Source of the DNA: Oscillospiraceae bacterium
GTDB taxonomy: Bacteria > Bacillota > Clostridia > Oscillospirales > Acutalibacteraceae
Direction of reading: 5' to 3'
Assembly (NCBI GenBank): GCA_015065505.1
Contig: SVQE01000009.1
Coordinates: 1 to 55,327, forward strand
Length of the DNA: 55,327 nt
Shown: piece after piece, positions 7,499 through 35,177 of the stretch
Layout of the letters: each line of letters opens with the position of its first letter
How positions within the stretch are numbered: the stretch's first letter is position 1
Made by a program: the position numbers and the translations under genes
Notes under the pieces: model-generated
Database searches by the model: none
What the model was told of the DNA's origin: nothing
The model's input: only the letters and a program-made list of their open reading frames with translations

Positions 7499-8473
7499 TC
7501 AGCAAAACTTCTCTATAAACAAATCTAGATTTAATGCCATTGCTGGTCTGACAAGTGAAGGCTTATTTGCTTCAATGGAATCGATTGTTTCTGAATTGCA
7601 TTTGATCGCACATATGGAAGGCAGTTTATCCTCGTCGTCCCAAGCCCGACTTTCTTGTTCACAGAGATACCATGAATTGTAATGTTCTGAAGGAGGGCAA
7701 AATTTGAGCATGTAATCAAGGTTCTCAAACTCTTCTTTAGTAAGCAAATACAGATAATCATCAGTTTCGTCATTACCTATAATTTGGTCACCTTGATTAA
7801 CATTACGATGTGTTTTAACTATTAGCTGCTTTTCATCGTCAGAGAACAATCTGTTATATAACCATGTATTCATTTCTTCTCGAAGGTCTGAGGCTCTCCA
7901 GCTACAAGCAATTTCTGCACAGCCGAATTCTTCAGTTCCGTCTTCAATAATATTGTATCCTGATTGATGATAAACACTTGGAAGCAATCCGGTTTGACTA
8001 ACTAGATACAGTATGTTGTTGATAACATCGACCTTGTAAGGAAGCCAGCTTATTTTAATTGATTCTCCTTTTTTGTTTTTATTTGAACCAAAGTATATAG
8101 GTTCTTTAATCAATCGGTATTTTATTATCTGGCAAAGGCGTTCCTCTTTATCATTCAAAATACGCAGTCCCTGTTCATAAAACAGGAGAAAATCTCTGGT
8201 AGCTGTGTGACCGACCTCCTTGCGTATGTTACCTATTTGCACAAAGAAATCTTCGTCACAATCAGTCTTGTCTTTCTGTGATTTTACAACAAATTCTTTT
8301 ACCTTCTTAACCGATTCATCGTATACATTGATTTTATGTGTTGTCAGCGACTCAAGGCACATCAGTTGTCTTTCTTTGTTAAATTCTCTGATACAACTAA
8401 TAAGCATATCCATCGGCATAGTATCTGCAAGGATAATTAACTTATCGTATTTCTCAATAAGACTTTCAAACAT
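7499..8473 (-). CDS. DUF6273-like domain protein
   Basis: 324 aa, function unknown. The N-terminal ~110 residues are helical and charged. The C-terminal half (about 130-324) follows the DUF6273 pattern: KISWLPYKVDVINNILYLVS, then a WR..DLREEMNTWLYNRLFSDDEKQLI block, DYLYLLTKEEFENL, and an ending VRPAMALNLD. This fold is related to formylglycine-generating-enzyme-like domains and is common in gut Firmicutes and their mobile elements. AAAGGAG lies before the ATG and the gene starts 15 nt after the stop of the membrane protein upstream. It is probably the last gene of the operon that begins with the glycine-rich protein at 9810. Confidence 0.65.
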   Translation of the reverse strand: MFESLIEKYDKLIILADTMPMDMLISCIREFNKERQLMCLESLTTHKINVYDESVKKVKEFVVKSQKDKTDCDEDFFVQIGNIRKEVGHTATRDFLLFYEQGLRILNDKEERLCQIIKYRLIKEPIYFGSNKNKKGESIKISWLPYKVDVINNILYLVSQTGLLPSVYHQSGYNIIEDGTEEFGCAEIACSWRASDLREEMNTWLYNRLFSDDEKQLIVKTHRNVNQGDQIIGNDETDDYLYLLTKEEFENLDYMLKFCPPSEHYNSWYLCEQESRAWDDEDKLPSICAIKCNSETIDSIEANKPSLVRPAMALNLDLFIEKFC

Positions 8474-8488
8474 ATTGGTCCACTCCTT

Positions 8489-9511
8489 TTATTCTTTTTT
8501 ACTGAAATACCGTCTATCAGCACGCATCATCATGAAAAGACAATATATTTTCCTATCTTTTTCTTCTTGAACCGTACATTCTTGAATATCTTTTAATGCT
8601 TTAAAGAAATCTCTTAATTTCTCACTTGTATCATCAAGTCCTTCGCTGCACATCGACTTAAACTTTAAAAAATCATCAACCATCTTGTCAATGAAATCCT
8701 TACCGTAAAGGTTGTGTTCAAGAATATAATCAAGATATTGACCTTCTTCTGTGATTCCTTTGTAAAAGATATTGTAATCTATACCTGAGCCCAGTTGCTG
8801 TTCGTAAAGATTTCTCAACATATACACTTCAAATATTGTCTGTATAGGGTCTATGAGGGTGTCATCTGATTTATATAATTCCGCAAACTCATCTAAATCG
8901 TCATTTATTATCTCGTTGTTCTCAGTAAAGTTATATTTTTTCATGTTGAACATTATTGAGACAAAGAAAAATATTTGTGATAGGCAATAGTAAACTGTGC
9001 TGTTTTGATCTGTTGAAAATGGTATGTAAACTATCACTACATATACGATTATCGTAACATATACACAGATGTTTAGTATCAATGATGCTTTCAAAAAGAT
9101 TTTACTATTAGCGAAAGCTGCAATAAAATTGACTATCGACCCTACAAAACACGCTGTTAGAATCGGTTCTGCAAAAGCAATAGTTCTCATATAGGTGGGT
9201 ATTACGAAATACGAAAGCGCAAGTATACACCAGAGAAATAGTTGCCACGATAGATCGAATTTTAAGTAGTTATTGAGAGGTTTCTCTTTAAACGTACCAA
9301 TACAATGAACTACATACGGCACTATCAATAACGGTAAAAATATTAGCTGCGATGGTTTCCTGTTAGCTACGTTGCTTTCTACAATAATCTGATACACAAC
9401 TGCTCCAAGCATTGTTAATAAGGCTACAAGTGCTGATGTGCGGTTTGAAAAACGATTAAGTCTTCTGATTAGTGAATCTATATCACGATATAACTTGTTG
9501 TCTTCTGTCAT
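8489..9511 (-). CDS. Polytopic membrane protein with cytoplasmic helical domain
   Basis: A 340-aa protein of unknown function. It has about six hydrophobic segments between residues 25 and 190, then a soluble, acidic, helical region of about 150 residues rich in Asp/Glu/Lys. The upstream ATG at 9616 is rejected because it runs into the hairpin and glycine-gene terminus; AAAGGAG sits 9 nt before the ATG at 9511 (MTEDNKLYRDI). It lies between the glycine-rich repeat protein and the DUF6273 gene, all minus strand, suggesting an operon controlled by the promoter-like element at 9857-9886. Confidence 0.7.
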   Translation of the reverse strand: MTEDNKLYRDIDSLIRRLNRFSNRTSALVALLTMLGAVVYQIIVESNVANRKPSQLIFLPLLIVPYVVHCIGTFKEKPLNNYLKFDLSWQLFLWCILALSYFVIPTYMRTIAFAEPILTACFVGSIVNFIAAFANSKIFLKASLILNICVYVTIIVYVVIVYIPFSTDQNSTVYYCLSQIFFFVSIMFNMKKYNFTENNEIINDDLDEFAELYKSDDTLIDPIQTIFEVYMLRNLYEQQLGSGIDYNIFYKGITEEGQYLDYILEHNLYGKDFIDKMVDDFLKFKSMCSEGLDDTSEKLRDFFKALKDIQECTVQEEKDRKIYCLFMMMRADRRYFSKKE

Positions 9512-9579: not shown

Positions 9580-9810
9580 TTAAGAGTTGGACCACCAGCC
9601 ACCACCTGATCGCCACATGCCGCCTGAATCCACACCTCCGGAGCCAGCCGGTCTATAAGTGCCTGTACTGTCAATACCGCCACAACCAGCGTCTCTCCAA
9701 GTGCCACTTGCATCAATGCCACCTGAGCCAGGATCTCTCCATGTGCCACTGTAGTCATATCCACCTGAACCAGACTCTCTGTATACGCCTTTGCCATCAA
9801 AATATCCCAT
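9580..9810 (-). CDS. Glycine-rich 14-residue-repeat small protein
   Basis: A 76-aa protein of unknown function made almost entirely of tandem repeats of about 14 residues with the pattern R-x-x-G-[SC]-G-G-x-D-x-[ST]-G-[TM]-[WY], four copies, after a start MGYFDGKGVYRE and before a Gly/Trp tail. The peptide at 11353-11454 begins MGYYDDQGFWH and shares the G-Y-[FY]-D-x-x-G-x-[WY] unit, so the two are probably relatives. There is no signal peptide. AAAGGAG is 8 nt before the ATG. The overlapping frame 9537-9800 is a shadow. The gene sits directly behind one of the five shared promoter-like elements. Confidence 0.75.
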   Translation of the reverse strand: MGYFDGKGVYRESGSGGYDYSGTWRDPGSGGIDASGTWRDAGCGGIDSTGTYRPAGSGGVDSGGMWRSGGGWWSNS

Positions 9811-9856: not shown

Positions 9857-9886
9857 GTTAATAATGCGTTTAATTAAAAAGTTAAG
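9857..9886 (-). promoter_or_regulatory. Shared promoter-like element, copy E
   Basis: On the minus strand ACTTAACTTTTT, 13 nt, ATTAAC (11-mer 9886-9876, hexamer 9862-9857). About 50 nt upstream of the glycine-rich protein ATG. Spacing is identical to the other four copies. Confidence 0.8.
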
Positions 9887-9904
9887 TGAGTTTTTGATTT
9901 TCTT

Positions 9905-9930
9905 GGGCGAGTTTTCGCTCGCCCATTTTT
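9905..9930 (+). terminator. Hairpin after the CHAP amidase gene
   Basis: GGGCGAG (9905-9911)/CTCGCCC (9918-9924); the T-run (six T) lies on the plus-strand side, although the nearest gene end is the minus-strand CHAP gene at 9940. It may act as a 3' stability hairpin on the minus strand or terminate an antisense transcript. Confidence 0.45.
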
Positions 9931-9939
9931 TGTTGTTAC

Positions 9940-11295
9940 TTATTTCATATCCGACAGTTTCAGATACACATTTTTGCTTCCGCTTCCCCAAGGACATGCA
10001 CAATAGAGAGTCTTGGAATTTACAGATTTGAGGGTACAAATATCGCCGGTATAAGCTCTGCCAATATAATTTATAGCGTTAGCGTCACTGTATGCATTAA
10101 TATATTTTGTACACTTAAATTTAAGCTCTGTAACCTTGAAGTAAACTGTTTTCGTTGAATTTCCCCAGGGGCACCTGCATTCAGCCCAATTATTTTTATA
10201 GATCTTTGTAATCTGAATCTTGTCTCCTGTGTAAATACGTCCGATTTTGCTTCCGTTTACACTACTGTATGCATTAACATAGTTCGCTGCCTTAAGATAG
10301 AAGTTAACAGAAATATAGTTGTTTGAAGTAACACTGGTGGTGTTAAAGTCCGAAAGCTTGAGATAGATTGATTTTGTTCCGCCATTCCAAGGGCAAGCAC
10401 AATAGAGAGTCTTGGAATTTACGGATTTGAGGGTACAAATATCGCCAATATAAGCTCTGCCAATATAATTTATAGCGTTAGCGTCACTGTATGCATTAAT
10501 ATATTTTGTACACTTAAACTTGAGATCTCCAACTCTGAAATAAACCGTCTTGATTGTTCCACCTGTCCAAGAGCATTTGGCAGCAGCCCATCCGTTTGAA
10601 TAGATGGTAATAACGTTGATTGTATCTCCAGAATAGATTCTTCCGATATTAGAACCATTCATGCCGTTATATGCTGTTACATAATTCGCTGCCAACAGTT
10701 TAAAGTTCGTACTAAATGATGTAACCTTTGTTGTAGAAGGTGCTGTTGTTGAACTTCCCTTATAGTTAGGTACGCCGAAATAGAAATTGGGAATGTATCT
10801 TCTGTTGGTGCAAACACAATACCCCTCTGCGCTGCCATTATTATTACTGTTACCTTCAATTGTGTAGAAGTAGTTCCCATCTGTATAGTACACTATACCT
10901 ACATGAGACCAGTCTTTAGTGAAGAAAATATCTCCAGATTTAGGTGTGTAATTACTTCCGTTATAGTACGGAATATTAAAGTAACTGGAACCTGCACCTG
11001 CACAAGCAGAATTCTTTATAACTGAGGTTGGAATACCTGCCTGTCTAGCACACCAGCTTACAAACATTGCACACCAAGGATTATAATTCAGTCCATACCA
11101 TGCACCATACTTGGTATTATTGTTTTTTCCCTCTGTATATCCGAGCTGAGTCTTTGCAACCTGAACAATGTCAGTTCTCTGATTGCCTGTGTTCTTGTAG
11201 GTGTTTTCATATGCTGCAAAAGCAGTCGTTGCCATTCCCGTTGACACGCTTAATACCATAATTAATGCGAGAAATAAACTTGTAATCTTTTTCAT
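9940..11295 (-). CDS. Secreted CHAP amidase with four SH3-like cell-wall repeats
   Basis: A 451-aa exported peptidoglycan hydrolase. Signal peptide 1-28 (ending AFA), CHAP/NlpC-like domain about 35-175 with catalytic Cys75 (NPWCAMFVSWCA) and His131 (WSHVGIVYY), then a linker and four SH3b-like repeats of about 65 residues in an A-B-A-B order. The units alternate ANYVxAYxxxNGSxIGRIYxGD with KCTKYINAYSDANAINYIGRAY. The two B repeats are almost identical at DNA level. AAGGAG precedes the ATG. It lies 57 nt behind the 33-aa peptide gene and is probably co-transcribed from the element at 11502-11531. It might open the wall for an envelope machine or DNA transfer (inference). Confidence 0.88.
   Translation of the reverse strand: MKKITSLFLALIMVLSVSTGMATTAFAAYENTYKNTGNQRTDIVQVAKTQLGYTEGKNNNTKYGAWYGLNYNPWCAMFVSWCARQAGIPTSVIKNSACAGAGSSYFNIPYYNGSNYTPKSGDIFFTKDWSHVGIVYYTDGNYFYTIEGNSNNNGSAEGYCVCTNRRYIPNFYFGVPNYKGSSTTAPSTTKVTSFSTNFKLLAANYVTAYNGMNGSNIGRIYSGDTINVITIYSNGWAAAKCSWTGGTIKTVYFRVGDLKFKCTKYINAYSDANAINYIGRAYIGDICTLKSVNSKTLYCACPWNGGTKSIYLKLSDFNTTSVTSNNYISVNFYLKAANYVNAYSSVNGSKIGRIYTGDKIQITKIYKNNWAECRCPWGNSTKTVYFKVTELKFKCTKYINAYSDANAINYIGRAYTGDICTLKSVNSKTLYCACPWGSGSKNVYLKLSDMK
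9998..10119. repeat. Direct repeat, copy 1 (inside CHAP amidase gene)
   Basis: About 122 bp nearly identical to 10397-10518, exactly 399 bp apart (133 codons), encoding the second B-type SH3-like repeat. Low divergence points to recent duplication or gene conversion. Confidence 0.9.
10397..10518. repeat. Direct repeat, copy 2 (inside CHAP amidase gene)
   Basis: Partner of 9998-10119. Only a few substitutions are visible across the unit. Confidence 0.9.
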
Positions 11296-11352
11296 AATAA
11301 TCTCCTTTGTAATTTAATAGATTTTGTTTTTTCTTGTTTTATTTGTTTGGTC

Positions 11353-11454
11353 CTATTCATCATCTGACTTGTTGGCACTATGGTAGTACCCGTCAGAATC
11401 ATATCCGGACTCATTTTTTGTATGCCAAAAGCCCTGGTCATCATAGTATCCCAT
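11353..11454 (-). CDS. 33-aa GYYD-type peptide
   Basis: A short gene easily missed by gene callers. It encodes MGYYDDQGFWH... and contains two degenerate copies of a unit G-Y-[YD]-D-x-[DG]-G-x-[WY]-[YH]-H, rich in Tyr, Asp, Gly and His, with an acidic end. It resembles the start of the 76-aa protein at 9580-9810. A perfect AAAGGAGG lies 7 nt before the ATG, and one of the five shared promoter-like elements lies about 50 nt upstream, which supports real expression. The CHAP amidase gene follows 57 nt later. Function unknown. Confidence 0.7.
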   Translation of the reverse strand: MGYYDDQGFWHTKNESGYDSDGYYHSANKSDDE

Positions 11455-11501
11455 GCAAAAACCTCCTTTCGTTTTTCACTGTGTTTTTGTTCTTACACAT
11501 G

Positions 11502-11531
11502 GTTAATAAAGCCTATTTGCAAAAAGTTAAG
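11502..11531 (-). promoter_or_regulatory. Shared promoter-like element, copy D
   Basis: Minus strand: ACTTAACTTTTT, 13 nt, ATTAAC (11-mer 11531-11521, hexamer 11507-11502). Upstream of the 33-aa peptide and CHAP amidase. Confidence 0.82.
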
Positions 11532-11549
11532 TGTTTTTTGAAAGTTTTT

Positions 11550-11687
11550 TCAAAAATTTTCACACCATCTTTTGTGTTTCTGTTTTCTCGAATACTGCTT
11601 TTTGCTTTTAACGACCCTCTCATAATAAGGTTGCCAAGTCGGACGTTCTTTTCTTTTTTCTCTTTCAACGTTTTTTTGCAACATCAT
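11550..11687 (-). CDS. 45-aa very basic peptide
   Basis: A short unrecognised gene. The 45-residue product starts MMLQKNVEREKRKERP, contains TWQPYYERVVKSKKQYS and ends WCENF; about a third of residues are Lys/Arg, with several aromatic residues. This suggests a nucleic-acid-binding or ribosome-associated peptide, but no family is recognised. AGAGGTG precedes a double ATG (11687 and 11684). One of the shared promoter-like elements lies about 27 nt upstream of the ATG. It sits between the sigma-like gene and the 33-aa peptide gene, each with its own element. Confidence 0.6.
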   Translation of the reverse strand: MMLQKNVEREKRKERPTWQPYYERVVKSKKQYSRKQKHKRWCENF

Positions 11688-11713
11688 AATCACCTCTTTT
11701 GTTTTGTCAATTA

Positions 11714-11743
11714 GTTAATAATTCCTTTTTGGGAATTATTAAG
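11714..11743 (-). promoter_or_regulatory. Shared promoter-like element, copy C
   Basis: Minus strand: GCTTAATAATTC, 13 nt, ATTAAC (11-mer 11743-11733, hexamer 11719-11714). The most divergent -35-like half of the five, but spacing is unchanged. Confidence 0.75.
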
Positions 11744-11765
11744 CCTTTCTGGAAAAATATTTTGA

Positions 11766-11800
11766 ATAAAAAAAGAAGTAACCGCATCTGCGATTACTCC
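11766..11800 (-). terminator. Terminator of the sigma-like operon
   Basis: Minus strand: GTAATCGCA/TGCGGTTAC stem (11797-11789 with 11786-11778, one wobble) then CTTTTTTT. It closes the DUF1292/CARF-like/sigma operon just after the stop at 11817. Confidence 0.8.
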
Positions 11801-11816
11801 TTTATTGACAATAATA

Positions 11817-13166
11817 TTATCTTTTCAATAACGCCTCTTGATATTTTATGTAGTTACTCATGTGTTCTGAGACTCGCGAGACTGTTGCTCCCTCACCAGT
11901 TTCAAGATTTTTACGAGTCTTATATTTATATGCGCCGTATATGCGGCCCTCATCTACAAGCTTTAATTTTCCTTTGTTTTTAGAATCTTTACTTTCTACT
12001 TCTGTTATACTTATGTTTGAATCTAATAGTTTTTTATCAAACAAAGAAGAATCAAGGTCTCGATATTTCTTAAAAGCTGCAGATTCAACATCTGTTAATT
12101 TAAATATATTTGGTAACAGTACAATGAAATGTATGAAGTCTTTATCACAGCAACCAAGAATCTTGTCATTTGATTTATAAAGATACTCTTGAATAAACGG
12201 AATGGCTTTTAGATATTTCACTACATCACAAGCATAAAACATCTGGAAATGCTCATATTTTTCAGGTGTTGCCTTTCTCTTATCGTTGTTATAGTGTTTG
12301 TAAAACTCTGTCAGAACGAGCATTTGTGAGAAATTATTAGCTATTCTTTTTACTCTTTCTGTCACTTCTATATCTGTTCCAATAGGAGGTTCATTTGATG
12401 GTATATCTATTGGTGTATCACCATCGTCAATTATTCCATCTAACGAATCCATTTTCTGTTGTTGTAAAATTCTTCTAAATCCACCAACTTCAACCGCTGT
12501 GATTTTTTTTGATTCTGAATTTCTTTTGTTATATTCTTTTGCAATTATTTCGTCATTGGGGATTGTACCATTCGTTGATAAATAATAATTCTCTATTCTT
12601 TTGATTTCTGAAATAATTTTGTAAGCCTTATCTTTTTTTATTCTAATCCAATTGGACTCTTCTAAAACATCGCTTTTTATCTGTAAAAGGATTTTGTCAT
12701 TCATAGAATAAAGAAAAAAGCTTGTATTCTTTTCTTTGTCGTACCCTTCTAATAATTTCAGGAATTTTTCATAGGTATAACTTACAATAACATCCAAATA
12801 ATTGCTTTTATCTTCAATTGGCATTTCATAACTGTTCATTATGAAAAAGTTATACAAAATGGGATTGTAGTAGATTATCATATAGCGTATAGCATTAAAC
12901 AAACCAACAATATATTCTCTAATGTCTTTTTTTGCTTGGTCTAATGATGAACAATATAACAATGCCATAAAGTTTATCAAATCCACAACTGTTTTCGGTT
13001 TCTCGGTTTCTTCTTTATAAAAATCTTGAATTCTCTCATTAATGCTTTCATCAAAATCATTTCCCATTTTGATTTTAGGAAATTCGAGTGCATTTGTATT
13101 TAAATAACGCCATCCAGAATAATCTCCGAATTGTTCAATTCGGTATTTTTTTATATAGTTTTCCAT
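11817..13166 (-). CDS. Divergent sigma-70 family factor
   Basis: A 449-aa protein that I read as an RNA polymerase sigma factor unlike the usual sporulation or ECF groups. Residues ~75-180 match region 2: helices followed by GYDKEKNTSFFLYS (141-154, compare the YDPxKGxxFxxYA core) and SNWIRIKKDKAYKI (171-184, compare the IRIP segment of region 2.4/3). Residues 200-250 match region 3: TIPNDEIIAKEYNK, then KITAVEVGGF and the diagnostic MDSLDGIIDDGD. Residues ~250-420 are a helical insert, and the last ~25 residues (ATVSRVSEHMSNYIKYQEAL) resemble a region 4.2 helix-turn-helix. It is the third gene of a minus-strand operon whose upstream element occurs five times nearby, suggesting autoregulation and a local regulon. 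No anti-sigma factor is obvious; the CARF-like or DUF1292 protein could fill that role (inference). Confidence 0.7.
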   Translation of the reverse strand: MENYIKKYRIEQFGDYSGWRYLNTNALEFPKIKMGNDFDESINERIQDFYKEETEKPKTVVDLINFMALLYCSSLDQAKKDIREYIVGLFNAIRYMIIYYNPILYNFFIMNSYEMPIEDKSNYLDVIVSYTYEKFLKLLEGYDKEKNTSFFLYSMNDKILLQIKSDVLEESNWIRIKKDKAYKIISEIKRIENYYLSTNGTIPNDEIIAKEYNKRNSESKKITAVEVGGFRRILQQQKMDSLDGIIDDGDTPIDIPSNEPPIGTDIEVTERVKRIANNFSQMLVLTEFYKHYNNDKRKATPEKYEHFQMFYACDVVKYLKAIPFIQEYLYKSNDKILGCCDKDFIHFIVLLPNIFKLTDVESAAFKKYRDLDSSLFDKKLLDSNISITEVESKDSKNKGKLKLVDEGRIYGAYKYKTRKNLETGEGATVSRVSEHMSNYIKYQEALLKR

Positions 13167-13195
13167 AATATCCCTCTTTTTAAATAGGTTAGAAT

Positions 13196-13804
13196 TTACA
13201 TCAATGATTTTAGAAATTCAGTTGGATTGTCTATATCTGCTTGCCCTACATTATTAATGATCTCATCCATGTACAAAAGCGACGTTACGTCGTATATTTT
13301 GATTTCGTTTGTATTGAAATCTTTGCTTCCGTATGCAAGACATTCTACAACAGTATTTTTCTTTATCCTTAAACAATAGTTTAATGCCATTATTTCAATT
13401 ATTGGAAGCGGTTTTGTTCCATAAGAAATGTCAGCAAAAACCGTATCTCCTTCATTGATTTCTTCAATGATTCTCATAAAAGTGTTCAAGTGTGCTTCTA
13501 CAGTTTCATCATAAGTTATTTTTATTTCTTTTATGCTGTAATCAATATCTGATAAATATTTCTTTGCGTGCTCAAGAAACTTTGCATAATGAACCTTACA
13601 ATTCGGACAAGCATCGTCATCTGTAAAAACTACAATTAATTCGACTTTCTCTCCTTTCTTGCTATATCCTTTAACTAAAGGTAACACAGGAAAGCAAGTA
13701 CAGATATCCGTATCAAGTTTCTCGTTATTAGCAGCAATATATATGCTATCTGTTAAAAACTCCGGCTTTTGCATAGGCGGTATCGTTGTAATAAATATTT
13801 TCAT
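13196..13804 (-). CDS. CARF-like (TM1812/Csx1-type fold) domain protein
   Basis: A 202-aa soluble protein. The start MKIFITTIPP and the motif FADISYGTKPLPIIEIM (residues 123-139) match the pattern of CRISPR-associated Rossmann-fold (CARF) proteins of the TM1812/Csx1 group, where a D-[IL]-[ST]-[HY]-G-x-[RK]-x-[LI]-P loop follows a beta strand. The following ALNYCLRIKKNTVVECLAYGS strand and DVTSLLYMDEIINNV helix also fit. A CPNC pair (66-69) is unusual. No HEPN or other effector domain is attached and no cas genes or CRISPR array lie in the window. It starts 27 nt after the DUF1292 gene and ends 29 nt before the sigma-like gene, so it may be a nucleotide-sensing regulator of that factor (inference). 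Confidence 0.55.
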   Translation of the reverse strand: MKIFITTIPPMQKPEFLTDSIYIAANNEKLDTDICTCFPVLPLVKGYSKKGEKVELIVVFTDDDACPNCKVHYAKFLEHAKKYLSDIDYSIKEIKITYDETVEAHLNTFMRIIEEINEGDTVFADISYGTKPLPIIEIMALNYCLRIKKNTVVECLAYGSKDFNTNEIKIYDVTSLLYMDEIINNVGQADIDNPTEFLKSLM

Positions 13805-13831
13805 TTTCTAGTAACTCCTTTATTTATGTAA

Positions 13832-14134
13832 TTAATCTTCAAAATTATACTCGTCTTTATGTTTTTCTTTAAATAGTTCAAAGACATCGTTTAATGTTTT
13901 CTCGTCATCAACACTTGTATACGATTCTTCGTCACTGTTTTCTTCATCTTTCACCAAAAGAATAACGACTTCTCCTGAATCATCTTTCGGTAGCAACACG
14001 ACGTATTCGTTGCTTTCATACTCAACAAGATCCAAGAATTCAAAGGATACAGGATTTCCTTTTTCATCGTCCAAGATGATGGTGTTGTCCAATTCATCAT
14101 CCAAATCATAATCATCAAATAGGTTTTCAAACAT
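13832..14134 (-). CDS. DUF1292 family acidic protein
   Basis: 100 codons, strongly acidic. The core ILDDEKGNPVSFEFLDLVEY, then EYVVLLPKDD and EVVILLVKDEEN, is the DUF1292 pattern (a small beta domain known from Firmicutes, near yrzB-type genes). The C-terminus is Asp/Glu-rich. The ATG at 14134 is preferred to the far upstream start at 14272 because AAGGAG lies 9 nt before it and the promoter-like element 14178-14207 would otherwise be inside the gene. First gene of the three-gene sigma operon. Its role here is unknown; acidic small proteins can act as nucleic-acid mimics or anti-sigma partners (inference). Confidence 0.75.
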   Translation of the reverse strand: MFENLFDDYDLDDELDNTIILDDEKGNPVSFEFLDLVEYESNEYVVLLPKDDSGEVVILLVKDEENSDEESYTSVDDEKTLNDVFELFKEKHKDEYNFED

Positions 14135-14177
14135 TTCATTTTCTCCTTTTTTGTTTATTCGTAGTTGCCTACATTTT

Positions 14178-14207
14178 GTTAATAAATGATAAATCGGAAA
14201 AGTTAAG
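14178..14207 (-). promoter_or_regulatory. Shared promoter-like element, copy B
   Basis: Minus strand: GCTTAACTTTTC, 13 nt, ATTAAC (11-mer 14207-14197, hexamer 14183-14178). Upstream of the DUF1292/CARF-like/sigma operon, so the sigma gene probably controls itself. Confidence 0.83.
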
Positions 14208-14300
14208 CGGAAATGTTCTTTTTTATTATACACAAGATAAAGTTGTTTTTCAATTATTTTCATTACTAACACGGTTTCTTAAGAAAATCTGCAAAAAGCG

Positions 14301-14330
14301 CTTAACTTTTTTGCAAATCCCTTTATTTAC
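14301..14330 (+). promoter_or_regulatory. Shared promoter-like element, copy A
   Basis: Plus strand: GCTTAACTTTTT, 13 nt, ATTTAC (11-mer 14301-14311, hexamer 14325-14330). The only plus-strand copy; it diverges from copy B with 93 nt between the two -35-like boxes and drives the membrane protein/VirD4-like operon. Confidence 0.82.
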
Positions 14331-14360: not shown

Positions 14361-14828
14361 ATGTTTAATTTCTTAGTACCTATCATTGCAGCTATTGTCA
14401 TTTTGATATTGTCAATAACGATTCAAGTGGCATCAGCAGCAGAAATAATCGCTACTGTTGGCTGGATATTGGTAATCGGATTATCCGTATTGATAATCAT
14501 TTTCGGCTTGTTACGTAAGGTACCGGTTGGTGAAAAAATTGTCGGAATAATTGTATCTATTATTGCAACCGTTATTAGTGTTGTTGAGTCACGCACTTTT
14601 CTTGGCGCAATTACCACTATCGACACAAGTGGCTTAATGGGTATTATTGAATTTCTGTTTGTCTTCGTCTTTGGGGGTCTATTGTGGCTTTCCGGCGTTG
14701 GCTTGTGTGTATATGCGTCCTATTGGGCGGTGACTGATGAAGAGGATTCTCCTGCCAAATTTTTCAATAGTGTTGGTGGCATTATTGGAAGTTTGCTCTT
14801 GTGTGGTTTCTTCGGTTTCTTCGGATAA
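14361..14828 (+). CDS. Polytopic membrane protein
   Basis: A 155-aa hydrophobic protein with about four transmembrane segments (roughly 2-25, 32-52, 58-80 and 92-125) and a glycine-rich hydrophobic C-terminus ending GFFGFFG. No known family is recognised. GGAGGG lies 6 nt before the ATG at 14361; the upstream TTG at 14334 is rejected because the transcript from copy A should start near 14337. It is the first gene of the plus operon and may be the membrane anchor for the VirD4-like ATPase two genes on, which itself lacks membrane helices (inference). Confidence 0.7.
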   Translation: MFNFLVPIIAAIVILILSITIQVASAAEIIATVGWILVIGLSVLIIIFGLLRKVPVGEKIVGIIVSIIATVISVVESRTFLGAITTIDTSGLMGIIEFLFVFVFGGLLWLSGVGLCVYASYWAVTDEEDSPAKFFNSVGGIIGSLLLCGFFGFFG

Positions 14829-14846: not shown

Positions 14847-15296
14847 ATGAAAATAATAACTGGAACTTATGAAAATCTAAAATTTGCTTGTCAAAAAGAA
14901 TTTCGAAATGATTACTTTGACTTCTGTTTCTCATTTGTGGACGAATCAACTAAATTCTATGAGATAAACCGTTTTCTCTATGAGTCCAAGCATACACGGA
15001 GATTTGTCAATAGGTATGAAGGCAATGTCACAATTGATATTTCTGAATGGAATAATAAAAGATTTACTAATAAATACTTCGATGCATTTATGTATTTTAT
15101 TAAGGATACTTCATCTTATAATAATTACATTTTTATTGCGGACAAACAACTAAACTCGGAAATTGAAAAGAAACTTTCAGAATTTTTTTATATTAACATA
15201 GTTGAACTTGAGTCAACAAAACCTGATTCTGGAAAAACTATTGGGTTTGTTGCACCTAATGAAAAGGAGGATAAGGGCAATCATGTTCGAAGCTAA
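14847..15296 (+). CDS. Hypothetical protein
   Basis: 149 aa, soluble, rich in Phe, Tyr, Asn and Lys, starting MKIITGTYENLKFACQ. No family is recognised. It shows alternating short helices and strands, no membrane segment and no cysteine pairs. AAAGGAG precedes the ATG, 18 nt after the membrane gene, and its last 14 nt overlap the start of the VirD4-like gene, so translation is probably coupled. A partner or substrate adaptor of the ATPase is possible, without direct evidence. Confidence 0.65.
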   Translation: MKIITGTYENLKFACQKEFRNDYFDFCFSFVDESTKFYEINRFLYESKHTRRFVNRYEGNVTIDISEWNNKRFTNKYFDAFMYFIKDTSSYNNYIFIADKQLNSEIEKKLSEFFYINIVELESTKPDSGKTIGFVAPNEKEDKGNHVRS

Positions 15297-16743
15297 ATAC
15301 TCACAATATATTCATCCCAGCAAATCGAGATTTGCATATAAAAATGAAATCACCGGTGTCTGTGCTGAAATTTCGAAAGGAAGCAGAAGTAAAGGAGCAG
15401 GTGCTGTTCTGTATTATGAAGATGGTAAATTATATGTCGATGATTCCGATACACACTACTACATAGAGGGCGAAACAGGTAGTAAAAAATCGAGAGTAGA
15501 ATCAACAAATATCGCTAAATCAATTATTAGAGCTAAAGAAAACGGTGTGGTTAACGATCCTAAAGGAGAATTGTATAAAAACACTGCAGGTTATGCAAAA
15601 TTGTTCGACTATAACATTAAAGTACTTAATTTTAGAGATTTTAAATTTTCAAATTCCTGGAATCCTTTACACTTAGCAAAACTATATGAAATTGAGGGAA
15701 AACACACACAGTCGTCTGAAGTGTTGGACGACTTCAAAGATGCAATTGTTGCTCCGTTGATTAATCTGACAAATGACAGATATTGGGGAGACATGGCAGG
15801 TTCTGTTTTTTCTTATAGTTCGAAAATCTTGGTTAAATCTGTTCCGGACAATGTTTTTAACATAGCTAGCATTATTCAATTTAGCGATCAAGAAAATCTC
15901 CCGATTTTAAGGGAGTTAATGCAAAGAATGGACAAGACTTCTGAAACTACTTTGGCAATGAAAGGTATTGTGAACTTGTCCGCCGAAAAAACACTTGATT
16001 GTATTTTCTCTACAGTGCAGCAGATGTATCTTCCCTTCATTCGTAATAAAGCATTAATGAATTTACTCTCTAGCAATGATATTGATTTTCAAGATTTGGT
16101 AGATAAGAAAACGATAATTTATGTAATATATCCTGATGAAAAAAACGGTTATGATTATCTTGTTAATCTGTTTTTTTCTCAGTGCTACCAGTACTTAATC
16201 GATTATTCAACAAAGTATGATGATGGCAAATTAAAAAGGAGAGTGAATTTTCTGTTAGACGAATTTAATAATTTACCTCCTATTGAAAAATTTGCCAATA
16301 AGATTTCAGAGGCTAGGGGGCATAACGTGCGTTATTTTCTCTTCGGTCAGTCATTTGGTCAGTTAAAAAAGAATTATAAGGAGAACGCACAAACCATTAT
16401 TGATAACTGTAACTGGATTGTTTTCACGTCTAAAGATATGGCGCTCTTTGAAAGAGTTTCAGAAATGTGCGGTAAGGAGATAGATAGTTATGGTAAGGAA
16501 CGATCTTTAATTGAAGCTTGTGATTTGCTACATCTGAAAAAGTATAAAGATGGTGCAGAAGCATTAATCATTAAGAATGGACAGTTCCCGTTCGTTACAA
16601 AACTTCCTGATTATGAATATATTGATGTTTTTGAAAAAGCTCCAGAATCACAACTAAAAGAAATTCGTATTCGACAAAAGCCAAAGTGCATCACTTTTAA
16701 TAAATGGATTAGCGGGTTGGGTTCTTTTTATGAGTATCCGTAA
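15283..16743 (+). CDS. VirD4/TraG-like ATPase with altered Walker A
   Basis: 486 aa, related to type IV coupling proteins. Features: P-loop region GETGSKKSR (63-71), then the family segments GVVNDPKGELY and FSNSWNPLHLA, a Walker B strand VNFLLDEFNNLPPI (residues ~325-338), and a late FLFGQSFGQLKKNY / IIDNCNWIVFTS block typical of TraG/VirD4. The invariant Gly of GxxGxGKS is Lys here. There are no N-terminal membrane helices, unlike VirD4, but the first gene of the operon encodes a membrane protein. The ATG at 15283 is chosen over 15202; AAGGAGG is 12 nt upstream. No VirB4 or other type IV genes lie nearby. Possible roles are relaxase-DNA docking for the element or delivery of another cargo. 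Confidence 0.72.
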   Translation: MFEAKYSQYIHPSKSRFAYKNEITGVCAEISKGSRSKGAGAVLYYEDGKLYVDDSDTHYYIEGETGSKKSRVESTNIAKSIIRAKENGVVNDPKGELYKNTAGYAKLFDYNIKVLNFRDFKFSNSWNPLHLAKLYEIEGKHTQSSEVLDDFKDAIVAPLINLTNDRYWGDMAGSVFSYSSKILVKSVPDNVFNIASIIQFSDQENLPILRELMQRMDKTSETTLAMKGIVNLSAEKTLDCIFSTVQQMYLPFIRNKALMNLLSSNDIDFQDLVDKKTIIYVIYPDEKNGYDYLVNLFFSQCYQYLIDYSTKYDDGKLKRRVNFLLDEFNNLPPIEKFANKISEARGHNVRYFLFGQSFGQLKKNYKENAQTIIDNCNWIVFTSKDMALFERVSEMCGKEIDSYGKERSLIEACDLLHLKKYKDGAEALIIKNGQFPFVTKLPDYEYIDVFEKAPESQLKEIRIRQKPKCITFNKWISGLGSFYEYP

Positions 16744-16839: not shown

Positions 16840-17250
16840 ATGATTATTACAAGTGTAAAAATTCGAAGACCAGAGAATGTTACAAGTAAGTTGGTTGGAA
16901 TCTGTTCTATAACTCTTGACGACATGATTGCAGTTCATGATATTAAAATTTTATCTGCTTCAGAAGGAAGTTTTTTGGCTATGCCTAGTAGGAAGACACC
17001 TTCTAATACATTCAAGGACATTGTACACCCGATTAATAAACCAGCAAGGGAAAAGATAGAAACTATCGTCCTAGGGTTGTTCAATGAAACAGAGAAAGAA
17101 AGCTATGCTTCTCAAGAATTCAAATATAAAAGAAATGATTGTAAATCTCTTTTAGAACAAGAAATTGAAGATTTTGAAACTGTTGAGAGTAAATCACATG
17201 ATTCTTTTATTAACGAATCACTTAGAAAAGAAATTAGTTCTTGGAAATAA
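16840..17250 (+). CDS. spoVG-like: SpoVG homologue with C-terminal extension
   Basis: 136 aa. Residues 1-85 match SpoVG, a small DNA/RNA-binding regulator of septation and virulence genes: ITSVKIRRP, SITLDDMIAVHDIKIL, FLAMPSRKTP and FKDIVHPINKPAREKIE are its conserved blocks. The last ~50 residues are an added charged, helical tail not present in housekeeping SpoVG. GGAGGG lies 7 nt before the ATG. The stop is 16 nt before the giant STAND gene, so the two are almost certainly co-translated. It may regulate or be sensed by that protein (inference). The gene is accessory, probably a second copy besides the chromosomal spoVG. Confidence 0.85.
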   Translation: MIITSVKIRRPENVTSKLVGICSITLDDMIAVHDIKILSASEGSFLAMPSRKTPSNTFKDIVHPINKPAREKIETIVLGLFNETEKESYASQEFKYKRNDCKSLLEQEIEDFETVESKSHDSFINESLRKEISSWK

Positions 17251-17266: not shown

Positions 17267-20200
17267 ATGGCTGAAATAAAAAATATGAATGGTATTACCT
17301 TATATCCAGATGAAAAACAGAAGGAATTATTTGATATCGTTTCTTCTGCTTTTTCAGTTGAACTCCAAACCAGTAATTGTTTTATTCTTACGCTTGTTCA
17401 ACAACGTATAGGGGATTTGTTAAAAGAGAATGGATTTGAGAGAGCAAATAAGGCGACCTTTTCTGCTGCCCCAAGTTATTTTAAGTTGGGATATAACAAG
17501 AAAAATGCTGATGCAATTAGCATAATTGGATTCCCCGATGATGATGATTTTTCGCTTTCTAAAAATCCTGATTTTATTCCTGCAAGAAAAAATGCACAGG
17601 GACTCCTCACACAAGAACGGCAAAGAGAACTTGCCGAAATTTTTGCTGAAATCTTTAAGGAGCAGAATAAAAACGGCAAAGTATATTTAGCAACTGTAGG
17701 CATTAAGGCTGGCAAAATTATTTCGGATGCAGGTTTTGGGAGAGCGTCTGTCGAACTCTTTAAATCAGCACCTGATTACTTTGAGACCGTTGAAGAATCT
17801 GAAGGTTCTTGGATGGTATTTTTAAAAGAAGATTGTGGTGTATCTTTATCAACGGATAAAAACTCTTCAGAACACAAAAGAAAAAACATAGATGATATTT
17901 CGTTTGAAGAGTTTGAATCTTATATTAAGGAATTGTTTTCTTCAAAAAACTTTAACATAATTGTTGAAGAGCGTGTTTTGAGAAAAGCCATTCATCATAC
18001 GAGTGGCGATATGTGGAATTGTATTATAAAATCATTCTACGCACTTAATGGCATTGAGATTACTAAATCACCGACTCTTACAGATTGGGAAAAAGTTGTA
18101 ATTGATTTTGAATCCTTAAAATCTGATTGTTCAGAAGAACGTCTTTCCGGATTTTCTTTGAATATGTCTGCGGAAGATGTTGAAAAATATGTTGACTCTT
18201 ATATGCATTCCGTTGAAAACTTTAGTTTAGTTGGTCAAAGAATACAATCGCTTTGTGGAACAAATAATCCACTTGCAATGGTATTCTATGAATTGGGTCT
18301 CATAGCAGGACTTTCTAATGATAGGCAGTTCTGTTTTAGGCTCCTTCTTCAGTACTATTCATATAACGATAAGACTAAAATCAGTTTTATTTGGGACAAA
18401 TATGCTGAAAAAAACATCAATCCTGCGAATATGACAATTCTTATCGGAACATGGTTTTTAGAAAAAGAGTTTGTTTTAATCAAGGAGTACATAAAAAAGT
18501 ATTATGAGTTCTATGATGAATCAGAATTGATGCAGCTTTACTATGAGTATTCAGATGCATTGCTTGGCAACTCCAGTAGTTCATTACCACCATTAACTTG
18601 TCTAAAATATGAATATGCCATTGACTTGGTAAAAACATTTCTTGGTTGTGCTATTTTTGAAGATAAATCAGATTTGTATTTTAGAATGCTAATTTGTTGT
18701 TTTACAACTCCAAAAGAATACATAATTTTCTCGGATTTATCAGAAATAATTCTTAAACAAACTGATTATATTTCCAAGCATTATGAATTATTGGTACAGA
18801 ATGCAAAAAATGATGGAGACTATCTGTTTTTGTTAAGTAAACTAATTGAGTTAAATATTATTAAACCTGATGAGTCTTGGCAAATGTTAAGTAATAGCAT
18901 TTTGGAAGATTACAAATTGCAAATTGGCAATGCAACTGTTGACGAAAAGAGAAAGCTATTACTTGAAGCAATTAGGCTATTTCCCGATAATGATTATTTT
19001 ACTAGCGAATTTGTTTCGTTAATCAGTGTTGAAAATGAGGATGATATTTGTGTATTGTTTGACAGACTTATTGACTCTGCAAATTATCTAATTATCACTT
19101 CCATTTTTGAAAACCATTCCGAAATTGAAGCGTTAAATAGTGCTGAAGTACTTAAAAGAGTTAGTATATGTTACCAGCAGCAGAATGAACACTTAAAATC
19201 TTTAGATATTGAAATTCGTATTATTCTATCATTGGTGGAAAAAGACGATGTGAGCACTAAATCTAGACTCACAGATTTTCTCTTTGTTCTATATAATGGC
19301 TTCGTTTCATCAAATCCCATTGTTTTAGATTGTAATACTGCTAGTAATTATCTTAGCCTTTTTAACCACTACAAATGTGAAACAAAGGATGCTCATTATT
19401 ACGCAATTGTAATCATGGGTCTGGCTTTTTATGCAAATAACATCCCACTTTTAAGTATGATGTTCGCTGTATCCAAGCCGTTAGATAATGAAAATAACAT
19501 TTTTGCATATTGCGAGAATGCTATTTCCACTACGGAAACAGGTTATTCTCATCGTCTTGGTGATTTTCAACGCACTTTTGAATATGTAATTACACAAGAA
19601 AAACCAGATATCTTTTTTAATATCTTAGGCAAGATATCTAATGTAATTCAAAATAAACAAGATGTATCTATTTACAACCAATTAAGAAATACTAACATTG
19701 AGGATATGGATACATTAAAAATAATAACTCTTATTGTTTCTGAATATAACAAGGAACGAGCTTGGAGACTTCTTTCACAACTTGCAATAAAGTCAAAAAA
19801 ATATGCTTTAAATTTTGTTGCTAACTGTGTATGGCTATATATGTTTAAAGATACGTCACACCCTCTTTCAAATTGCACACGTGCTTTAGACCGCTATGTT
19901 GATGATGGATTGCCACGTAACTTCCTTTGGTGCTGTTTAGAGGTCTTAAAAACTTCTTTCCATGGACCTATTACTGTATTTGAAAATGCATTGATCAATC
20001 ATATTTCTCGTTGCCAATCTTTTGTTAATGCTAATCATAGCGTCGCTGAAGCCTATTTAGAGGTTTTGTCATTGAAAGAAAAGCCTAAATCTAATGATTT
20101 TCTTCTTTTATCGGAAATTGCACTTCAAAGTGATTCTTTTGATGTGTTTTGTAATGAATGTATTGCAAACAATCGCAAATACTTATCATTATTAAAGAAA

Positions 20201-23200
20201 GATTTAGCTTTAGTTGTTCGTTTTTGCGTTTCAGCTTGTAGTGCTCGCGACGATGGCTTCTTGTCTGCATTACCTATATATAAACAAGTCAGAACCAATA
20301 TATCATTTAATGGAAATGACTCCAAAGAATATGCGGTGTTGTTATGGATTGATGGTTTATTAGAATGTAGAAAATCACCTTTGCCGGATTCTAAATTTTT
20401 AGAAGGTTCAATAGCATTATTGTCTGCATATCCTAATTTGTCCTCTCCTGATGTTATTACAAAATGGGTTACACATAATGCGACAAGAACTTTTCCGAAC
20501 TCTCTTTTAATAAGGAATTGGATTAATACTTTTGGAAGCATTCGAACAGTAAAGTTAGCAGATTCAGCATATCTTAACTATGTGAATAAAAATTGGTTGC
20601 CTGACGATTCTCAGGAGCTCGCCGAGTTCTTCAGAATGAAGCTGTTTTTATCTGAAAAATATATTTATTACTATGATCGAATGAAATCCGAGCCACAGGA
20701 TAATTATTTAAGAAGATGTCATGCTTTTTTTGGTTACAGAATATTGGCTAATATTACATCGTCGGTTCCAGAAAGTTTTAAATCCAAGATGGAAAAGGAT
20801 CTAGCATATCTAAATAAACTTGATCGGTTTCGTAAGATTCAAACCGGAGTTGAAAAGTTTGTTGATAATGTAGATGATGAAGTAATAAGGCGTTTATTTT
20901 TATACTGTGGTATCACAAACTATTGGGATGTTTGTTTTGAACAATGTCTAAATTCCCTAGACAAGTTATCTTTATATTCAGATGAGATTGTTCCTTATAC
21001 TGAAGCTGTAGATTGTCATCCTTTACGGAGACGTTTATTGCAAATGTATTTGTATTCTTCAATTGCTCAGACAATGATAGAATCAGGCAATGAATACGAA
21101 AACCTTTCAAGTCTCAATGAAGTACAAATGCATTATAACAGTTTTGTCGAATTAGGAGTTGATGCAAGCGAATATATTGAAAAGACTGAAAGACTGATTG
21201 AAATTGTTCAACCAAAATTGATTGAAATTATTACTTCAATAAAAGAAGCTGATTCCTTTGACGAAAGAATCGGCTTAATTCGTGGCGTCTATTTTGCTCT
21301 TGCGAACAAGAATATTTCTATACTTCAGAACAAATTCTACGAATTAGAAAAACTTGAATATAATAGTATTGCTATTAAAACCATTTTGGCTATTCAGTAT
21401 AAACGAAACATCAAGGAATTCATATTTAATATGTCTTTAAAAGGCGAATCCGCTGTCTTGCCTTTCTTTGACTACGATAAAACAACTAACACAATTGGGG
21501 AAAGTGAGTGTGAATTATTAAAAAGTGCATATTATTCAACAATAGGTGACTTTGAAAAAGCGAGACTCTATTATAACCATTCTAGTTTTGATGATAGTTT
21601 GTTTAACAAATTGAGCGAACAGGTTGGCTACTCTATCGATAACGAAAAAGCACTCGTTTTTGAGTTTGATTCTATTAGCGGCAAAAAAGAATTTTTGTTG
21701 CCAGAGTTTTCGTTTTTTAGGGTAACAGATCCTAATGGTGTTAAATTAAGTCAATTGATTTCAGATTACTATGCTGACAATCTTTATGATGCAAGAGGAA
21801 AATGCTCTGTTGCAAGTAAAATTCTATTTTATTATAAAAATGGTGAGTTCCAAAGTGATATAGAAAAATTTATTTTTGATTGGGGCTTCACAGAAATAGA
21901 CGCATTATCTGATGTTGAGAAAAAAGCTGGTGTTTTGTTTGAATTACTTGATAACATTGGCTTAATTGAACCTTATAAACCGTTATTTAAGGAATCGTTT
22001 GTTAAGAATTTTTTATATGTTTTACAAGAATTTGATTATAATTATCTGTTTAACAATTTTGAGCGTATTTATTCATCACAACAAATACTGTATAAAGAGT
22101 TCTATCCATATAGCAACTGTGACTGTTACGCTCAAACTCTTGCTTTGCTCAAGCAATTGTTTGGAATTGACATCAATAAATATGAACCAAAAATTATTGA
22201 TTTAAAAGTGGATAAAATAAAATCAGACTTAATAGAACTTCATATTAATAAATATCCCCAAAATCGTTTTGTCAATAAATGTATTGAGTTTGTGGAACGC
22301 TTTTTGAAAAAAATTCGTGCCAAAGGCAATGTAGAAATAAGGATACTTAATCATAATAATGAGTTTGACGGGGTTATTTACTACCAAATTCATAATATAG
22401 GGTTCGAAATATTGTCAAATATTTATCTTACATTTGAAGTAAATGGATTAAAAGACCGCATTGAACTCAATACTCTAATGCCTAATGGTCTTCGCCCAGA
22501 TCAAATTTTCGCAGGTGAATACTCAATTGCTAGAGATTTTGATAATGGGACTTCGATTTGTTGTGGTGTCACAATAGAGTATACTTCATATGACGAAAGT
22601 GGCAAAAAAATATACACAAGTTATTTGGCTATAGACCCCAAAAGTGCCGATGCTTTGAATGTGTTTAAAAGTAAACTTGAAGCGTATCATAAAAATGGTG
22701 ATGCAGGATATATTGAGGAACCAATAAAAAGAGATTCTGATTTTGTTGGAAGGGAAGAGAAAATTGAAATAATTATGGGGAAAATACTTAAAGGAGACAA
22801 TGTTCTTCTTTTTGGTACCAATGGCACAGGAAAATCCAGTATACTCCATTATATTAGAAAAAAATCACTTTCTAATGCTTATGAAAACAAGTCAAATCGC
22901 AGTCTTGGAAAGACATATTATGCAACTGAATTGAAATTTGATTCTGATTGTACAGAAAGAATTGTATTAAATTCAATTGTTAATTCTATTTCTTCACAAG
23001 CCAGTTTGTTTAAATCATTTATTAGACACAATGCAACGGACGAAACAATTGATATAATTGAGGATGTTACGGCGTACTGGACCAAACATGGTGAAAACAA
23101 CTATGATGAAAATGATTTCTGCCAAAACACCGATAATCTTCGACAATTCTTTAATACGCTTGATGAAGCACTTGATTTGTCAGACCTTGATGTTTATATT

Positions 23201-25365: not shown

Positions 25366-26214
25366 TTAGAGTACGATTAATAAATATTGCAACAAATTCA
25401 ACTTGAATCTACTAACCCCATAACTCGTTTCGCTTTCAATGAGGTTTGCTTCTTTTAGTAACTGCAAATACCTTCGTCCAAAAGCAGTTGTGCCGAAGTA
25501 TGCATCAAAGTTAGTAACAGGCAGGATGACCCAATCGGTGTTGTTCTGCTTGTTTGCTATATAGTACTTGTATAGCGTAATTAATACTTCCAGTTTTACA
25601 CCTTTTGGAGTCGATAATATTAACTGCTCTGTTAATTCAGGTGATAATTCAAAATCCTTGTTCTGCAGCTCGCCTTGCTCTAGTGCGTCTGCAAGGATGT
25701 CGTCAAAGTGAATGAGAAAACTGCCCTGCGTTTTTGATGAATATAGCGGTACCTGGTATTGCATAACCTTTTTTCGCCAAGCAGTTGCAAAGCCTTTTAA
25801 TTTATCCGGCTTCTTCTGGTCATATTTTGATACCTTGTCAGGATTATCTTTAATAAACTTAATCGTGTTCTGCACAAAGGTATAAAACCAGCCGTTACCG
25901 TTTCTGTCAACAAGCTCAGAAAATTGCTCGTGTAAGTGTCTGTAATCCGTTTCGCTCTGACCTTCCTTCTTCGGTTGGTCAGTTTTTTTATTCGGCACAC
26001 TGCACCACGCACAGAGAGCCAGCCTTGCACGGTCAATATCTGCCTCGCCGTTTTCATACATATACCCACGGGCAACAATCGTCAGCACACGGGTTAAGCC
26101 GATAAACTTTGTGAGCATATCAAAATTAAACCTGCCGAGATAGGTGTGCTTGTCGGCGGTTTTGTAATCCATCTTACCGGTGTAAGCGAGAAATTCCTCT
26201 TTTTCGTTTAGCAT
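25366..26214 (-). CDS. Element protein with winged-helix end, probably frameshifted
   Basis: 282 aa, function unknown. It begins with an acidic/aromatic N-terminus and is mainly helical; the last third (LEVLITLYKYYIANK ... FGRRYLQLLKEANLIESETSYG) looks like a winged helix. The frame ends abruptly after SRFKLNLLQ. A different minus frame continues as IQVEFVAIFINRT ... IRVESIGA to a stop at 25274, right before the terminator hairpin, so one base has probably been gained or lost near 25415-25420 and the intact protein would have about 310 residues. Its start overlaps the end of the RNA polymerase-like gene by 41 nt, implying translational coupling and a joint function. Confidence 0.6.
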   Translation of the reverse strand: MLNEKEEFLAYTGKMDYKTADKHTYLGRFNFDMLTKFIGLTRVLTIVARGYMYENGEADIDRARLALCAWCSVPNKKTDQPKKEGQSETDYRHLHEQFSELVDRNGNGWFYTFVQNTIKFIKDNPDKVSKYDQKKPDKLKGFATAWRKKVMQYQVPLYSSKTQGSFLIHFDDILADALEQGELQNKDFELSPELTEQLILSTPKGVKLEVLITLYKYYIANKQNNTDWVILPVTNFDAYFGTTAFGRRYLQLLKEANLIESETSYGVSRFKLNLLQYLLIVL

Positions 26215-29203: not shown

Positions 29204-29236
29204 AGAAAATACTCCTTCATAGATGCATTTTAACAC

Positions 29237-35163: not shown

Positions 35164-35177
35164 AGAAAGGAGTTAAA

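Follow-up and report, generated by a model that had tools for sequence, protein, structure and literature searches.

What reads five short elements of one fixed architecture that surround a sigma-like gene on a mobilizable island, and what signal might govern the reader, is the question raised by the stretch of DNA analysed here (contig SVQE01000009.1 of an Oscillospiraceae bacterium, assembly GCA_015065505.1; 55,327 nucleotides [nt], hereafter the window). The window is a 55-kb part of a genome assembly of 2.31 Mb in 95 contigs (88.95% complete), the whole of which was searched. A preliminary description, made from the letters of the sequence, had proposed an autoregulated sigma factor with a dedicated regulon; the local promoter set, including an element ahead of the factor's own operon, is strongly supported at the sequence level, while the evidence that the protein is a sigma factor is only indirect. 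That description missed a gene for a CARF-domain sensor in the same operon, and the reading therefore shifts from an autonomous to a sensor-controlled sigma regulon. The interpretation preferred here, to which a probability of roughly 60% is assigned, is a sigma factor that regulates its own operon, is controlled by the CARF protein and serves five promoters on a mobilizable island.

The element is 30 nt long and reads, 5' to 3', CTTAACTTTT-N12-TTATTWAC, with copy C the most divergent of the five (A–E; Table 1). A pattern search returned all five at the coordinates and on the strands first reported, and the distances from the end of ATTWAC to the start codon (A, 31; B, 44; C, 27; D, 48; E, 47 nt) fall within the 25–55 nt previously claimed (27–48 nt computed). 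Copy B does precede the operon of the sigma-like gene itself, in which genes for a DUF1292 protein, the CARF protein and the sigma-like protein follow one another. The motif had been described as a local one and the genome-wide search agrees, as CTTAAYNNTT-N14-ATTWAC has five matches in the whole assembly, every one inside the window (reversed control, 0). When a stricter form, CTTAACTTTT-N12-TTATTAAC, was allowed up to three mismatches, the assembly held 15 matches, with E, D and B perfect, A at one mismatch, none at two and 11 at three, copy C included; these 11 are at background level because the reversed control gives 33. Across 398 genomes of the family, CTTAACTTTT-N12-TTATTWAC matched four times, always in the window and never in the other 397 genomes (reversed control, one match, in genome G401). 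The spacing is equally confined: between CTTAAY and ATTWAC only a gap of 18 nt yields matches in the window, gaps of 14–17 and 19–23 nt yield none, and the strict pattern lengthened by one base has 12 scattered matches with none in the window (reversed, 20). With a leave-one-out matrix every omitted site ranked directly after its four training sites (25.9–35.5 bits), all other window positions scoring 17.3 bits or less. A separate de novo two-box scan also picked up the motif, by its B, D and E copies, and none of four shuffles gave a dyad. At least 120 stretches of the viral_contigs collection carry the motif and, among the 80 listed, each has a single match, as expected by chance.

Identity between copies is concentrated in the boxes, with a mean pairwise value of 0.88 for box 1 and 0.95 for box 2, compared to 0.37 in the spacer, 0.38 in the upstream flank and 0.40 downstream (background, 0.27–0.28); the seven bases after box 2 reach 0.64. 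Because the boxes are 88–95% identical and the spacers and flanks have diverged, selection on the boxes is indicated. The same pattern largely refutes the idea that one promoter spread recently by duplication with no shared regulator, which is highly improbable even though the A and D spacers share TTTGCAAAT, offset by one base, and spacer identity slightly exceeds the background (0.37 vs 0.28); the earlier argument that differing spacers speak against recent duplication is upheld. Judged by these comparisons, the five elements form a promoter-like set that is under selection and specific to the island, neither chance nor plain duplication, and very probably a real set of co-regulated promoters.

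The operon behind copy B places the 202-aa CARF protein between the DUF1292 gene and the gene for the 449-aa sigma-like protein. The CARF protein is a presumed sensor of a nucleotide second messenger: profile PDLC01821 covers residues 1–201 of 202, TIGR02221 matches below its cut-off (E = 1.9e-11), and G129 and K131 of the GxK motif are conserved in 9/9 aligned CARFs. The GxK motif of CARFs contacts the ligand. No relative was found in viral_contigs, and the PDB held no relevant sequence match. Relatives do occur in eight other genomes among 394 of the order, in two others among 398 of the family (one of them new) and in a further series of 11 loci (L026–L036), three of which duplicate loci of the genome scan (L027/G201, L033/G232, L036/G213). 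In all 11 the CARF gene is followed on its strand by a gene for a 268–326-aa protein of a single family. With the window excluded, a CARF gene directly followed by a sigma-70-like gene was found in 17 of 18 relative loci, namely the 11 above, G272, G055, G264, G321, G739 and plasmid pTS2 of Treponema saccharophilum; a partial match within a 611-aa frame of G201 (L025/L016) was left out of this count as a longer protein. Some of the 17 are close kin (L028/L033, L034/L035, G272/G739) and so do not represent 17 independent cases. In the CARF tree the window protein groups with the L026–L036 CARFs (moderate support, 87/81) and apart from a Treponema/G272 clade (support 100/100), and the CARF–sigma-like gene order is kept in both of these diverged clades. 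Adjacent sensor and sigma-like genes that stay together in this way fit a partner pair.

Many of the pairs stand in a setting of type III CRISPR (clustered regularly interspaced short palindromic repeats). Type III-type cas genes lie, judged by eye, within or beside 9 of the 11 L026–L036 loci (not L027; L028 is ambiguous), and Cas10-like proteins of roughly 490–500 residues (by eye) are encoded beside some of the CARF–sigma-like pairs. Family searches detected RAMP genes in 4 of the 10 CARF-bearing genomes tested, adjoining the pair in G213 (together with Cas6) and G232 and lying away from the pair in G201 and G272; none was found in G000, G739, G055, G264, G321 or G317. Other neighbourhoods were also observed. 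The pair stands beside VWA, PP2C-like and kinase-like genes (by eye) at L022 (9131–13440) and L024 (8593–16276), these genes following the pair at L022 and preceding it at L024, both in genomes with no detected RAMP genes. At L023 it precedes a weakly DUF1292-like protein and an AAA/M41 protein. On the spirochaete plasmid pTS2 (L168, 8001–9587) it is accompanied by AAA ATPase and VWA genes and is annotated as a TM1812 family protein and a hypothetical protein.

The CARF partners as a group are probably sigma factors, as their profiles suggest. When a profile of 10 partners from L026–L036 (A4) was compared to the PDB, the top 14 of 43 matches at E ≤ 10 were sigma factors (best E = 0.0016), and with a profile of five partners from outside cas loci (A6) this held for the top 7 of 14 (best E = 0.0024), either result being marginal singly. 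The two profiles align with each other over 251 columns (E = 2.4e-5). Single partners match Sigma70_r2 (0.0032), Sigma70_r3 (0.0024) and Sigma70_r4 (0.1), none of which reaches its curated cut-off, and one A6 member combines the Sigma70_r3 (0.0024) and Sigma70_r4 (0.1) matches with a PHROG sigma family (2.8e-4). Within an 11-member set (A5), Sigma70_r2 was matched by two members and Sigma70_r3 by two.

The 449-aa protein of the window occupies the slot of this conserved CARF-next gene, whose family profiles match sigma factors. Its own similarity was assessed in a ranking set of 1,553 sequences that comprised the protein, 552 real open reading frames (ORFs) and 1,000 shuffles, decoy ORFs containing the protein having been removed. 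It ranked 2 of 1,553 both with the profile of CRISPR-linked partners (best stretch, residues 267–328) and with a profile of four sigma factors from its own genome (residues 136–223), and the two stretches differ and stand in the expected order. The sole sequence above it with those two profiles was a phage ORF that by eye has the look of a T4 gp55-type (late) sigma factor. Profile comparison to A4 gave E = 0.031 over 123 columns, and adding the protein to the partner alignment left the top PDB matches much as they were, apart from a rise of SigI1 and SigI6. No relative of the 449-aa protein was found in 294 other genomes of the order or among the genome_contigs, viral_contigs, plasmids and phages collections, from which records very near the window's genome may have been excluded. 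The identification as a sigma factor is thus an indirect one, built on gene order, weak collinear similarity and the set of promoters, and the protein is likely to be what reads the five elements.

Several results weigh against the preferred interpretation. Taken alone, the 449-aa protein had no sigma match in Pfam, NCBIfam, PADLOC, PHROGs or the PDB, a miss at the profile level that the preliminary description, which had called the product of 11817–13166 sigma-70-like, had named as refuting its reading; the protein is filed as sigma-like because no significant match to Sigma70 region 2, 3 or 4 was obtained. The conserved slot and the two second ranks speak in favour of the earlier label, but a hidden Markov model of all partners pooled ranked the protein only fifth, behind three shuffles and the phage ORF. 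In hhalign comparisons, 3 of 80 decoy proteins outscored it against all partners pooled, and shuffles scored at least as high in 1 of 250 cases for the CRISPR-linked partners and in 15 of 250 for the sigma factors of its own genome. A separate run with the sigma profile had 1 of 1,000 shuffles beating it, and against 200 shuffles it stood just above them with one profile (0.0062 vs 0.011) and no better than them with two others. Several CARF partners likewise have no Pfam sigma match (L019, L023, L024, L029, L168), and 1 of the 18 CARF loci, in G317, has no sigma-like neighbour; this stand-alone CARF (L020, 9520–10098, minus strand) sits on a long branch of the tree. The two-box scan was run on 11 of the 18 relative loci or on DNA around them, with dyads rejected as plain repeats if their 48-nt windows matched at 34 columns or more. 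Nine of the 11 yielded no repeated motif; the remaining two yielded only what appear to be CRISPR repeats (L030) and, in G272, a dispersed repeat. The multi-promoter regulon is therefore seen once, on this island. Finally, the window's own genome has no RAMP match in its 89% complete assembly, where CBASS-type (cyclic-oligonucleotide-based antiphage signalling system) synthases were not searched.

Part of this evidence would also be accommodated if the five sites were operators, or activator-dependent housekeeping promoters, under another regulator of the island such as the DUF1292, SpoVG or helix-turn-helix (HTH) protein, and the 449-aa protein were no sigma factor. That protein has no family match by itself, SpoVG and Cro-type HTH proteins are encoded on the island, and the element can be read as TTAACT-N16-TATTAA, which by hand count agrees with the SigA consensus at 4 of 6 and 4 of 6 positions. 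However, no element reaches the sigma-70 threshold, none being among the 43 sigma-70-like promoters (at least 9 of 12 consensus positions) that a consensus scan gave; the fixed 18-nt gap and the gene-facing orientation of all copies fit recognition by a sigma factor better than by a repressor, and the gene kept next to the CARF gene encodes a sigma-like protein. Control by another regulator is accordingly judged unlikely.

A sigma factor and regulon could also be real while the CARF protein serves as a ring nuclease or sponge that removes the messenger and has no direct control over the sigma factor. Crn1 is a CARF protein. Stand-alone ring nucleases (Crn1–3) do occur in type III loci, according to the accessible part of one source (PMC12409355), yet three near-complete genomes in which no RAMP genes were detected (G055, G264, G321), and in which a ring nuclease would have no evident use, retain the pair, and the gene order of the pair is kept in two diverged CARF clades. 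A messenger-removing role is quite unlikely on these grounds, and control of the sigma-like protein by the CARF protein is favoured with some reserve.

Under the preferred interpretation, the island would carry a sensor–sigma operon (DUF1292, CARF, sigma-70-like) whose sigma-like protein, together with the host core RNA polymerase, would read CTTAACTTTT as the -35 and TTATTWAC as the -10 box. The CARF protein would bind a nucleotide second messenger and switch the sigma protein, acting either as an anti-sigma factor that the ligand releases or as an activator that needs the ligand. The SigA-like sequence directly upstream of B could supply basal expression of the sensor operon; with the signal present, the sigma factor would amplify its own operon from B and also switch on the A, C, D and E units, which encode a CHAP hydrolase, MGY-type peptides, membrane proteins, a VirD4-like ATPase and a giant STAND-like protein. 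Such cargo (lysin-type hydrolase, small peptides, membrane proteins, VirD4/STAND) suggests a programme of defence or stress response. Cyclic oligoadenylate is the likely ligand of the CRISPR-linked copies and a doubtful, if possible, one in this system: its genome has no detected RAMP genes and therefore no known source of cyclic oligoadenylate, which leaves a synthase of another kind, one missed in the 89% complete assembly, or a different messenger. A sub-cut-off Cas10-palm match in the same genome (25.8 vs 27 bits) was rejected as a candidate; it lies in a membrane-sensor-type frame with no cas-like neighbours and was taken by eye as a GGDEF-type domain.

Among known systems, CASP-sigma and CalpS are the most similar in behaviour, and no CARF partner is mentioned for either one in the accessible parts of the two papers (PMC10028731, PMC11229360). 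CASP-sigma of type III-E CRISPR has three copies of its motif in its own locus, pointing to positive autoregulation, and its inhibitor Csx30 is cleaved by the protease Csx29 (PMC10028731, in the part available). The window resembles that system in having copies of the motif inside the locus of the presumed sigma factor, and differs in that no protease or Csx30-like gene was found adjacent to the pair, the partner is a CARF protein and the genome has no detected RAMP genes. In the Calp system, a nucleotide second messenger frees a sigma factor, CalpS, through CalpL and CalpT for a transcriptional response (PMC11229360, in part), the same chain of messenger, sigma factor and response as in the proposed switch. 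Its sensor is a SAVED-Lon protease with a separate anti-sigma factor, whereas in the window a stand-alone CARF gene directly precedes the sigma-like gene; neither a SAVED-Lon protease nor a CalpT-like anti-sigma lies beside the latter, whose operon neighbours are DUF1292 and CARF. The regulators Csa3 and RtcR also couple CARF sensing to transcription, but as fusions of CARF to an HTH domain (Csa3) or a sigma-54 activator (RtcR) (PMC4012209, as far as its accessible text goes), where the window has separate genes.

The CRISPR-linked form of the pair may already be covered by the phrase "RNAPol + CARF, UAS-58" of Altae-Tran et al. 2023, reported near type III loci; the accessible portion of that paper does not state that 'RNAPol' is a sigma factor and gives no promoters, CRISPR-less loci or regulon (PMC10910872). 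Beyond this phrase, no CARF gene paired with a sigma-70-type gene and no report of a CRISPR-less CARF–sigma regulon was found in the open-licence literature, to the extent that its texts were accessible. The paper on the Calp system excluded regulators and Cas10 proteins of fewer than 500 residues (PMC11229360, from the part available), a size limit that could hide the Cas10-like proteins seen beside the pairs.

The units behind the elements, with the remaining features of the sensor operon, are collected in Table 1.

Table 1. Promoter-like elements, genes and other features around the sensor operon (window coordinates)
Feature	Position	Strand	Evidence or context
Element A	14301..14330	+	upstream of presumed operon A, ATG 14361
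Element B	14178..14207	-	upstream of DUF1292–CARF–sigma-like operon, ATG 14134
Element C	11714..11743	-	upstream of 45-aa peptide frame
Element D	11502..11531	-	upstream of 33-aa MGYYD peptide frame and CHAP-protein gene
Element E	9857..9886	-	upstream of 76-aa MGYFD peptide frame
SigA-like TTGAAA-17-TATAAT, 11 of 12	14225..14253	-	consensus match only; directly upstream of element B
DUF1292 protein, 100 aa	13832..14134	-	Pfam PF06949 E 5.8e-13 (run with one extra upstream codon)
Stand-alone CARF protein, 202 aa, CARF2 / TM1812 type	13196..13804	-	PADLOC PDLC01821 E 3.2e-54
Sigma-70-like protein, 449 aa, presumed sigma factor	11817..13166	-	synteny and weak collinear profile matches
Intrinsic terminator-like hairpin	11772..11803	-	between sigma-like gene and element C
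45-aa basic peptide	11550..11687	-	reading frame only
33-aa MGYYD peptide	11353..11454	-	reading frame only
CHAP-domain protein, 451 aa, cell-wall hydrolase type	9940..11295	-	Pfam CHAP E 4.5e-10
Hairpin	9904..9925	+	between CHAP gene and element E; T tail on + strand only
76-aa MGYFD repeat peptide frame	9580..9810	-	no Pfam or PHROGs match
340-aa protein, hydrophobic segments (by eye)	8489..9511	-	second gene after E
324-aa protein	7499..8473	-	third gene after E; no Pfam family at E 0.01
155-aa hydrophobic protein (by eye)	14361..14828	+	first gene behind A; no family
149-aa protein	14847..15296	+	second gene behind A; no family
VirD4/TraG-like coupling ATPase	15202..16743	+	third gene behind A; PF02534 E 5.1e-36
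SpoVG-domain protein	16840..17250	+	behind A; PF04026 E 2e-25
2,649-aa protein, STAND-like NTPase region near residue 1825	17267..25216	+	

The SigA-like sequence upstream of B is only a suggestive candidate for a basal promoter of the sensor operon, because such matches are as a class no commoner than in shuffles (43 sites at 9 of 12 or better, 40.7 expected). The five genes behind A, from the 155-aa to the 2,649-aa protein, presumably form one operon. The preliminary description had listed a VirD4-like ATPase as a target; the identity is right (NF045973 also matches, below its cut-off, E = 1.6e-60), but the gene comes third behind A, after one for a small hydrophobic protein, and its true start is probably downstream of 15202. 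The 2,649-aa protein matches nSTAND1 (E = 2e-4) and AAA_16 (E = 2.8e-4), both below cut-off; by eye it has two similar N-terminal repeats, and it bears a likeness to large defence sensors. Behind D and E, the CHAP protein has an apparent signal peptide (by eye), and the 340-aa protein, searched as a longer 375-aa frame, has no Pfam family above cut-off. The first frame behind each of these two elements encodes a small peptide of MGY[YF]D type (11353–11454 and 9580–9810, minus strand), rich in Gly, Tyr and Trp, a pattern absent from the other CARF loci scanned.

The surroundings are composed of mobile-element genes, including those for a relaxase, ParM-like and ParB proteins, TnpV and a large serine recombinase (35124–36854), and a Cro-type HTH protein is also encoded on the island. 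A second CHAP protein, with ricin-type lectin domains, is encoded in the same stretch (4424–6511, minus strand) with no promoter element. A 1,020-aa island protein (26177–29236, minus strand) matches PF05183, the eukaryotic-type RNA-dependent RNA polymerases (E = 6.6e-10), and retains an intact DFDGD motif at residue 574, a relative of the two-barrel polymerases on a bacterial mobile element.

It is tentatively proposed, at a little under even odds, that pairs of CARF and sigma-70-like proteins represent a separate class of switch from second messenger to transcription that works also outside CRISPR, and that mobile elements carry such pairs with a private promoter set, linking a nucleotide alarm to a cargo regulon (lysin, small peptides, VirD4-like/STAND) with no protease or classical anti-sigma factor. 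If so, two proteins alone would link nucleotide alarm signals to gene expression, and as the island displays the promoters that are served, the circuit would be testable in one small experiment. Sigma switches of this kind would then be carried by mobile elements in bacteria with no detected type III CRISPR, which would point to unknown messengers or synthases in those bacteria.

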